The notes under the pieces were generated by a model that saw only the letters and a list, made by a program, of their open reading frames with translations, did not search any database and was not told the DNA's origin. DNA of 64,000 bases, from positions 100,961 to 164,960 of the forward strand of contig JALMQS010000069.1 in the NCBI GenBank assembly GCA_024734495.1, in the 5' to 3' direction. Positions within the stretch are counted from its first letter, which is position 1. Every line of letters starts with the position of its first letter. Source of the DNA: Forficula auricularia (lineage: Eukaryota; Arthropoda; Insecta; Dermaptera; Forficulidae). Shown piece after piece: positions 6,542 to 9,500 of this stretch. Both the position numbers and the translations under genes were made by a program.

Positions 6542-9500
6542 GTACAAATAATATTTCCTCTTCTAAATTTAGATAGCGGTAATTTTATTTTAAGGTAGTT
6601 GTTTCGCGACAATACTAGCAAAAAGTTAATGCTAGAATATATAGCACAGACAATAAGGATACATAAGCCCAAAACTTTTTGCTGTTTATGTACCGATTCA
6701 AGCCAATCCCGTGCTCGTTTGACAAATCTGGCACCATTGTAAGAGATTGAATATTTTTAAATTAAAATGACAGATAAAATACATTTTAAAAGATAAGAGT
6801 AAATAGATATTTTATTTAATATGGATTTACTATGAGTTAAGGATACTGGGTCACTTATTTCACATTAAAGATGTTTCACCTTGCACCAACACCACAATCT
6901 CTCTACTGATTACATTTTAAAAGTTAAAAAATTTCTATAAAAATCGTTTTGTTATTTTTTAACAAATGTAGTCAACGCCTACGTTACACTTTATGAAAAA
7001 AAATCTAGCCCATGAGCGCTTTATACATCTGTCGCTGGTTAATTAAATGCGCTGTTGCCAAATTGTTTTTAGTGTAAAAGTTTTTTATACATTTTTAATT
7101 ATTTATTCGTTATTATCTCAGAAACTGTGTTGTAAATATGAATCAAAATTGTCTTGAAATATGTAATGGTTATTGTTTAATGTTGGTTTATTTTTTTATA
7201 AAAATGGTAAGAAGGGTTTCTTAATTATAATTAAATATGTATGTAAATTTTCCGATATCCCGTATAGTGCAATGTATAAGAGTCTGAAAAACTATCTTTG
7301 GAATTTAATATCTCCGAAACTATATTGTTCATAAATTTCGTTTTGCCACCAATCGATGCAGAAGTATTTAAATAATAATCTATCTAAATTTCAAAAAAAA
7401 TCCTAAGAAAACCCATTTGGCGGAACAACTACCTTTTTTTTTTTTTTTTTTTTATTTAATGTCACCGGGAACAAAGCCCATTTAGACAGCACATAAGTAA
7501 AGTGTTAGTAGGGTTAGTGGGGGAGCCGAGTTTTCAGCCGGTAGAAATTTATATTTGATATCTAGGATCGAACCCCGGCCTCCCACTTCAACATCGTCAT
7601 AATCGATCGATGCCGAAGCGAGGCCAATGCGTTAGCTGACTGAGCCAACCCGACTCCCAAACAACTACCTTAATATGTAGAAAATTGTTGACCTGGAATA
7701 TTTTCTCCAATAAAGAAAGTTTCGGGATTTTTTAAGAAGTGACAGAATTGGCATGAAACCTGTTTTAGGACTAACCAAACTATAAGAGTTATTATTTTTT
7801 TTTATTTATTTGGTTCAAATTTACAGTACATGCCCGAATGGGGCTTCGGTACTTTCTTTTAATACATTGAAAGGTAATTTTTTGATTAAATTTACTGATT
7901 CTATACATATGGTTAAATTCAACTATGTGTATTTTCCTCTTCCTCATCTTCATCGGTCGATGTAGCTCTTCTCTTTTCTAGCTCGTCTTTATCCTTCAGC
8001 CGTCTTATTCCATCATCTTCCATCCTTCCCTCCTTTAACTGTCCTCACAGGTTCTTCCACAGCTTCTCTGTTCTTCTCTCTTCTCCTTTCTGTTCTGTTG
8101 TTTCTTCCTCTCTTATTCTTTTGTTATAAATATTTCCCCATCTGGCCCTTGTCCAGATGCGCCTCTTCCACTCGCTTATGTTTGGTCTCTCCAGATACTC
8201 CTCTTTTCCAATGTTTTTCTTAATATCTTTATAGTATGGGAAATATTTGGATTTTTCTATTTTTACTAGATCTAATTATATTTTCTGTTCTGCGCCTTTT
8301 ATTATACCGCTTTCTATTTTTTTTACTAATTCATTTTCTTCCTCATTTAGTAATTCTTGAACTACTGTGGGCTCTCCCCATCCATTCCACCTTTTTCTAA
8401 AGCCGTTTCCCCATCTTGTTTCATTTTTATTTTTAATTCCTCTGATTATTTCTTTCAGTCATATCTTCGGCCATCTGTCATCCTCAATCTCTTTGACTTT
8501 TAACATATATTTCATCAATCTTTTAGCTTGATACACATATAGGTTTGATCTGCCCGTTTCTATCTATCCCCATTATTAGTTTAAAATATTGACCTTGTGT
8601 TTTTTCCACCTCTATTTTTTCTTCCCAACCCCATAGTTCAACTCCATACATTAAGATCGATCTTATTAGGGATTCGAAGAGGTAGAACTTCTTTCCGAAT
8701 GAAGCCATTCTCGTTCTATAAGAGTTAATTAAAATACTTAATAATATTTTTTTGCAACGAAATTTTCTCTGGAGAGAGACGGACTGGTAGAAATTTTAAT
8801 TGAATGTAATGGAAGGCAGCCCAGGGTAGTGAGGAAAGAAAAAATTAACACATATAAAATAAGGTGTAATTTATTGGAATCCTTCCTCCTTTCCTTTCAA
8901 ACCGACGTTTCGGAGGATTTTTCCCTCCTTCTTCAGGGTTTCAAAGGGTCAATGAATGAAACAAATAAAATGTTTCCTTCTTCTCTCCACAGTAGTGTTC
9001 AAAAACTTTCTTCATTTTTAACAAAGGCATAGAAAAACAAAAAAAAATTTTTTCTATGCCTTTGTTAAAAATGAAGAAAGTTTTTGAACACTACTGTGGA
9101 AGAAGAAGGAAACATTTATTTGTTTCATTCATTGACCCTTTGAAACCCTGAAGAAGGAGGAAAAATCCTCCGAAACGTCGGTTTGAAAGGAAAGGAGGAA
9201 GGATTTCAATAAATTACACCTTATTTGGATATGTGTTAATTTTTCTTTCCTCACTACCTCTGGGCTGCCTTCCATTACATTCAACTTAATAATATGTTTC
9301 ACCTAGAACTAAAACCAAGTTCCTTAAAAATCACTAACCAAACTAATAATAATTGAGTGGATAATGATGAGGCAGTCCAAAAAAAGAAGCAGAATTATAG
9401 TGTAGCTGATAATGAAATACAATATATTATTGTTACTGCCACTGAAAGAGGAGACAGAGGGGAATGTCGCATTGGATTTCCTTCACTGAATTTTCAAAAC

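Follow-up and report, generated by a model that had tools for sequence, protein, structure and literature searches.

The closest structural parallel to the elements described here is Penelope of Adineta vaga, in which pseudo-LTRs (pLTRs) lie inverted and head to head with palindromic junctions, one inverted pLTR optionally bears a 31-bp tail, TSDs measure 8-10 bp, and unrelated DNA is mobilized between the pLTRs (PMC3846280). The pLTRs of Penelope-like elements (PLEs) carry minimal hammerheads that do without helix III (PMC7761336). Such minimal type I hammerheads go back to Cervera and de la Pena (2014) and to Lunse et al. (2017), both as cited in PMC7761336 and PMC6155905, the title of the latter study speaking of cleavage as dimers; in the main text of the Adineta vaga account, the word hammerhead does not occur (PMC3846280). 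The anole PLE PAc is a tandem autonomous element whose hammerhead lies near the junction of pLTR and ORF, and palindromic products go undiscussed in the text that describes it (PMC11167929). Metazoan retrozymes are likewise small and non-autonomous and have type I hammerheads, but they are found as tandem repeats and circular RNAs, not as palindromes (PMC7229834). Little is known about PLE integration, and how the inverted pLTRs came about has apparently only been inferred. Among the papers listed on hammerheads, foldback elements, and PLEs, available mostly without subscription, none mentions palindromic pairs of hammerheads in its title or the opening of its abstract, and they may have been described elsewhere.

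The window analyzed here is a stretch of 64,000 nucleotides from the earwig Forficula auricularia (contig JALMQS010000069.1, positions 100,961 to 164,960). One of its elements, E1, shares with Adineta vaga Penelope the head-to-head arms, the palindromic junction, the one-sided tail, and the TSD; the Adineta pairs border an ORF or captured DNA, whereas the earwig copies studied consist of the two arms alone (PMC3846280). An earlier note on this DNA knew of no description of such a class of foldback ribozyme element; that the class is undescribed is not supported, because head-to-head pLTRs, tail, and TSDs have already been described for Penelope (PMC3846280) and hammerheads lacking helix III for the pLTRs of PLEs (PMC7761336). 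Its hint at PLEs fared better, given the match to the published plan of inverted pLTRs and to minimal hammerheads (PMC3846280, PMC7761336). Comparison at the sequence level suggests that E1 is a high-copy, non-autonomous palindrome of Penelope-like kind rather than a member of an unknown foldback class. We consider it probable, with some confidence, that it is a PLE-type head-to-head pair of pLTR-like arms that was assembled rather than copied as a unit.

Structure of the E1 palindrome

E1 occupies positions 8748-9283 of the window, and the self-complementary stretch runs from 8796 to 9289, with 94% identity over 501 aligned positions. Its parts are as follows.

8736..8747: left TSD, ACTTAATAATAT, 12 bp
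8748..8800, minus strand: one-sided tail, its outer end reading ...TTTCGTTGCAAAAAA outward; inner limit approximate
8801..9042, minus strand: left arm, on the tail side, pLTR-like, with its head at the center; limits approximate
8904..8936, minus strand: hammerhead core of the left arm, without helix III
9043..9283, plus strand: right arm, tail-less, with its head at the center; limits approximate
9148..9179, plus strand: hammerhead core of the right arm, without helix III; predicted cleavage 3' of C9179
9284..9295: right TSD, ACTTAATAATAT, 12 bp

The earlier note had described a mobile palindrome with two divergent hammerheads and the same sequence on both flanks, and this description is borne out by the self-complementarity, the outward-facing cores, the 12-bp TSD, and the copies found across the genome. 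Its geometry for transcripts of either strand, with one sense and one antisense hammerhead, is also as it had stated. Both cores have the form CTGAAGA-A-GGAGG..CCTCC-GAAAC-GTC, in which one extra A is followed by a 5-bp helix II; helix I, read by eye, comprises 5 bp, a G-G mismatch, and 5 bp, in agreement with the note. The “full hammerhead core” claimed for each arm stands as regards CTGAAGA, helix II, GAAAC, and GTC and fails as regards helix III, which is missing, as GAAAC directly abuts GTC. Unlike the known minimal hammerheads of PLEs (PMC7761336), those of E1 occur in outward-facing palindromic pairs; the extra unpaired base before helix II may be a further difference.

The tail (8748 to about 8800, about 50 bp) has no counterpart in the right arm. 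A one-sided tail about 30-50 bp long is a PLE feature. The tail of E1 has the same end in 29 E1 copies, although these were picked with a query that contained the tail. E1 has no ORF-bearing body, and none of the 97 window ORFs of at least 68 aa, searched for an RT plus GIY-YIG frame of its own, matches GIY-YIG at an E value of 0.01. Hence, we describe E1 as PLE-type and non-autonomous and do not file it as a PLE.

Palindromes of the same plan in the window

The note had also claimed that the plan recurs with other sequences, and we recovered it near 51.8, 54.0, 17.8 (with the right arm mostly lost), and 52.75 kb, and only in part near 42.6 kb. These and further related features of the window, which fall into the E1 family and families F2, F3, and F6, are the following.

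9502..9533, plus strand: lone core, from a related family, in which GAC replaces GTC
17817..18078: F2 copy, the right arm mostly missing; core 17881-17911 (minus)
42587..42938: decayed palindrome (42603-42938) with core 42587-42618 (minus)
50098..50679: second E1-family copy, 84% identical; cores 50256-50288 (minus) and 50536-50568 (plus)
51845..52255: F2 palindrome, tail on the right, 12-bp TSD ATTCTTAATAAT; cores 51906-51936 (minus), with GAAATG replacing GAAACG, and 52134-52164 (plus)
52343..52373, minus strand: F3 core, with a truncated partner near 53920 (plus)
52751..53008: F6 palindrome, tail on the left; core 52855-52889 (minus), the right arm starting within the core
54030..54370: F2 palindrome; cores 54095-54125 (minus) and 54252-54282 (plus); end repeat of at least 10 bp

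The limits of the second E1-family copy are approximate because its end repeat is only 8 bp, and the F2 copy at 17817..18078 has no convincing end repeat (7 bp). The F6 palindrome is bounded by a 12-bp TSD, ACTATTAAGAAT (52739-52750 and 53009-53020), and its core has ACTATAGT at the place of helix III. The F3 core belongs to an inverted repeat (52061-52637 and 53661-54198) whose halves are separated by other insertions, F6 among them.

Two further features may be added. At 49725-49758 (plus strand) lies a hammerhead-like motif with GAAACTGTT, a looser relative around which no palindrome was seen, and 12340-12490 holds fragments of the E1 family in pieces that are 87-92% identical.

Hammerhead motif and its covariation

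The hammerhead motif is far above chance. Exact matches in the genome (1.06 Gb in 845 contigs) number 35,729 (18,021 plus 17,708), against 0 for a reversed control pattern; an initial strict scan of the window, with 3 matches against 0-2 in each of 20 shuffles, is weaker evidence than this count. In the window, the pattern CTGANGAAG..CGAAACGTY has 9 matches, and helix II has 6 bp in all 9. Among at least 120 motif matches listed for viral-contig loci, two have 5 bp in helix II and none has 6; these look like chance, and further scans of viral contigs gave nothing.

The first 100 genome matches in contig order, a nonrandom sample, have 5 or 6 contiguous helix II pairs in 77 cases and fewer in 23. 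When the helix II halves were swapped among the 54 distinct inner sequences of these matches, 1091 of 5000 combinations retained at least 5 bp, compared with 31 of 54 unswapped; that many swapped helices still pair is due to many of the 54 sequences sharing a family.

Helices I and II covary between families. For helix II in 14 sequences the covariation was 0.780 against 0.211 when shuffled (0/500) and 0.08-0.15 when slid, with 5 of 6 pairs changed on both sides, a proportion that is not unusual (122/500 shuffles). For helices I and II together in 10 sequences it was 0.713 against 0.240 (0/500), and both sides had changed in 9 of 10 pairs (5/500 shuffles); the rows of these between-family alignments are not all independent families. 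The motif thereby has the makeup of the minimal, PLE-type hammerhead: a CTGANGA...GAAA core in which helices I and II covary and helix III is absent. Among E1-family copies, conservation of the core scarcely exceeds that of the remaining arm sequence (mismatch 0.0138 versus 0.0158); 46 of 58 arms have an intact core, and 18 of 29 copies have one in each arm. Single E1 copies show no selection for the ribozyme, and constraint is visible only between families, with weak conservation within the family being as expected if selection acts only on source elements.

The covariance-model search to which the earlier note had looked for support yielded none: Rfam returned no hammerhead at gathering scores in the window, nor among 42 matches up to an E value of 10, which may be because helix III is missing. 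Matches to microRNA families over the palindromes fall below the gathering scores of those families and reflect the hairpins.

Copies across the genome

The E1 query gave 1931 first-look candidates, of which 40 were scored; these yielded 80 matches at 90-100% identity, with every copy matched in both directions. From them came 30 loci and 29 distinct copies for study (L150 is the same locus as L127 and was left out), which are the best matches to E1, so that intact and similar copies are overrepresented. The flanks of 28 of the 29 copies bear a repeat of at least 9 bp (mean of all, 12.2), as against 3.3% of mismatched flank pairs. These TSDs are variable in length and AT-rich, like those of PLEs, and the tail end closes in an apparent short A-run of variable length. 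F2 (1579 candidates, 40 scored) has weaker end repeats, of at least 9 bp in 6 of 11 copies against 6.4% of mismatched pairs, a count that omits L191, which has the same flanks as L190, and L186, whose ends were not found. The TSDs and the A-run at the tail end fit target-primed reverse transcription.

Orientation could be followed in the first 100 genome matches, where 23 neighboring pairs lie less than 700 bp apart: 18 are minus/plus, i.e., outward, 3 are plus/plus, 1 is minus/minus, and 1 is plus/minus. All but one of the outward pairs stay within one family (17 of 18), the remaining one joining two different families, and 64 of the 100 matches lie outside any minus/plus pair of exact matches. 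Of four outward pairs that were extracted, three form a palindrome along most of their length, and in the fourth only 100-bp arms do so. Inverted head-to-head pLTRs of this kind are a PLE feature.

Central junctions and substitutions shared between arms

What is newly seen here is that central junctions are specific to the copy and that private substitutions are common to both arms of a copy. Judged from their central sequences, most of the 29 E1 copies have a short, AT-rich central loop of varying length; the centers differ between copies, and either arm, tailed or tail-less, can be the longer one. In L131, L132, and L149, the right arm continues some 25-35 nt beyond the usual head and the left arm ends before it; in L129 and L146 it is the left arm that is extended. 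Both heads are truncated in L196, which was fetched separately. The central junctions of the F2 copies vary likewise.

The consensus sequences of the left and right arms of E1 show no difference over 200 columns. Arms within a copy differ by 0.0238 and arms of different copies by 0.0303, and none of 10,000 random pairings gave a value as low. Private substitutions common to both arms numbered 11 for E1 (family F1), against a permuted mean of 1.22 (0/10,000), and 19 for F2, against 6.97 (5/10,000), these being the values at the middle of three rarity limits. The other limits gave 6 versus 0.46 and 11 versus 1.22 for F1 (0/10,000 for both) and 8 versus 1.57 (7/10,000) and 27 versus 12.07 (14/10,000) for F2; the F2 permutation omits L191, which repeats the flanks of L190, and the window copy at 54.0 kb. 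Most rare substitutions occur in one arm only (115 versus 11 in both arms for F1, 217 versus 19 for F2), and we read these as later mutations. An arm's own partner is its nearest or tied relative for only 8 of 58 E1 arms. The sharing of substitutions between the arms of a copy is thus real but weak. The variable centers, the lack of a difference between left and right consensus, and the shared private substitutions argue against copying as a unit and suggest that every insertion assembles its palindrome afresh, although central deletion together with gene conversion could imitate such assembly.

Relationship to Penelope-like elements

A search of the genome for GIY-YIG gave 3423 candidates, of which 150 were scored and 30 loci cut out. 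L181 is a tandem PLE whose 858-aa ORF matches both RVT_1 and GIY-YIG; its two hammerheads, 2909 bp apart, have ACTATAGT at the place of helix III, as in F6. This sequence (F6, L181) and the ACGT at the same place in E1 and F2 are self-complementary, which fits the dimer cleavage named in the title of Lunse et al. (2017), cited in PMC7761336 and PMC6155905. A minimal hammerhead lies nearby in 10 of the 30 loci, and an 11th has an E1-family copy. In L164, L166, L171, and L177, DNA next to the GIY-YIG match shares 91-94% identity with the left arm of F6, and shorter and weaker matches (74-84% over 43-63 bp) lie in many other GIY-YIG loci. The decayed palindrome at 42587..42938 resembles, at 84-87% over 37-45 bp, a hammerhead region found next to other GIY-YIG matches. 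L183 shows an intermediate form between a PLE and a palindrome: a GIY-YIG fragment is followed by a hammerhead and tail, the opposite end bears a short inverted arm, and a TSD of 13 bp was read by eye. No autonomous element with an E1 arm was found among the 30 GIY-YIG loci (of 150 scored), two of which (L166 and L180) have E1-arm matches that look like inserted E1 copies. Hence, our claim is that E1 is built like a PLE, not that it is a proved descendant of one.

How the palindromes might arise

The template is most likely a linear RNA that runs from the head through the hammerhead to the tail. A PLE protein acting in trans might reverse transcribe this RNA at a staggered, AT-rich break, with cDNAs extending from both ends of the break toward the 5' end of the RNA. 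One cDNA would start at an outer site and keep the tail, and the other would start at an inner site and be tail-less; the joining of their ends midway would leave the heads at the center, and fill-in would give the TSD of about 12 bp. If the hammerhead acts at all, it would do so in the source RNA and not in the palindrome. We tentatively propose that each palindrome is the record of one such two-ended target-primed reverse transcription, with the cDNAs joined at their 3' ends, a proposal that we put forward as a reasonable possibility short of a probable one. To our knowledge, such a reaction has so far been seen only as separate half-reactions in vitro.

The anole PLE provides the nearest biochemical parallel. 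PAc shares an AT-rich target with E1, its protein cuts and extends both DNA strands and prefers AT-rich DNA, and reverse transcription starts at two sites bounding the tail (PMC11167929). By analogy, extension of two strands combined with two start sites might yield two cDNAs with their heads at the center and one of them tailed. In vitro, the anole enzyme showed no difference in start site between strands (PMC11167929), which leaves the one-sided tail without an explanation. If two-ended priming is true, the variable centers would represent very many natural joining events and would explain the inverted pLTRs of PLEs.

The main rival is self-priming, in which a one-arm nucleic acid folds back near its head and primes its own copying into a second arm; this too predicts new junctions and shared private substitutions. 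It has been proposed for Adineta Penelope with an antisense template, and the inverted palindromic junctions there were attributed to it (PMC3846280); in a variant that we add, the cDNA itself folds back. By our own argument, however, a full fold-back copy of a tailed strand should bear the tail, whereas the second arm is without one, and the primed arm should always be the shorter at the head, whereas either arm can be the longer here. We therefore regard self-priming as rather unlikely, while still giving it appreciable weight. Another explanation, in the manner of foldback elements or MITEs, has the whole palindrome copied as a unit by a transposase or reverse transcriptase, with the center varying by later deletion. 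The centers of palindromes are prone to deletion, which favors this explanation, as does the confinement of most rare substitutions to one arm. Against it, the left and right arms have the same consensus, the private substitutions found in both arms far exceed those of permuted pairings, and the apparent A-run at the tail end and the variable length of the repeats favor target-primed reverse transcription over a staggered cut of fixed length. The palindrome does not appear as the unit of copying and its TSD is not of fixed length, with gene conversion between arms remaining conceivable; we judge copying as a unit improbable.

A metazoan retrozyme, whose self-cleaved monomers circularize and whose circle is reverse transcribed, would agree with the small size, lack of autonomy, and hammerheads of these elements and with the PLEs in the same genome. 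Nevertheless, close pairs among the first 100 genome matches are mostly head to head rather than in the tandem arrangement of retrozymes, only 3 plus/plus and 1 minus/minus pairs of 23 being tandem. Further, the arms continue far past the predicted cleavage site on its upstream side and stop near a head instead of running round a circle, and helix III is absent, whereas most type I hammerheads of invertebrate retrozymes can form a stable one (PMC7761336). A retrozyme origin thus strikes us as very improbable. On the evidence of arms, junctions, and pair orientation, we reject the foldback transposon and the circular retrozyme as main readings. Because this genome holds very many short palindromes that have individual junctions and target sites, it offers data by which two-ended priming, self-priming, and unit copying could be separated.

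What the hammerhead could do

When the RNA of the entire palindrome is folded computationally, both cores are predicted to pair within one hairpin (MFE, -397.4 kcal/mol; z, -40). With both cores buried in this model, we think it doubtful that the palindrome works as a double ribozyme, and the one active hammerhead that the note expected from either strand is only a prediction. Inverted pairs of hammerhead motifs can occur in an animal genome, and their own RNA would fold the ribozyme away into a hairpin. Both arms of the copies studied reach upstream of the predicted cleavage site, which implies that the templates were uncut there or had been religated. Published activity is mixed: the hammerhead of the anole PLE showed no cleavage when protein was absent and was not required for insertion in vitro, and the same text mentions that a PLE hammerhead had earlier been seen to cleave itself in 3-25 mM magnesium (PMC11167929).

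Other features of the window

Several inverted repeats lie elsewhere in the window. A different kind of foldback element at 23687-24648 comprises a nested palindrome (23855-24637) with further inverted copies alongside, and several nested or neighboring inverted repeats occupy 2467-3555; motif scans found no hammerhead core of E1 type in either region. At 36485-37673, an inverted repeat with arms of about 287 bp that are 96% identical surrounds 617 bp of other DNA. RVT_1 is matched by 2 of the 97 window ORFs scanned, and repeated fragments of one retroelement-like protein were recognized by eye on the plus strand at 25505-26497, 31344-31772, 39558-40118, and 47956-48621. Three ORFs match an FAD-dependent oxidoreductase family, the ORF at 6110 probably being among them, to judge by its sequence. 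In keeping with the animal origin of the window, a 455-aa reading frame at 43259-44623 (minus strand) matches menin (Pfam code PF05053; E value, 1.5e-83).
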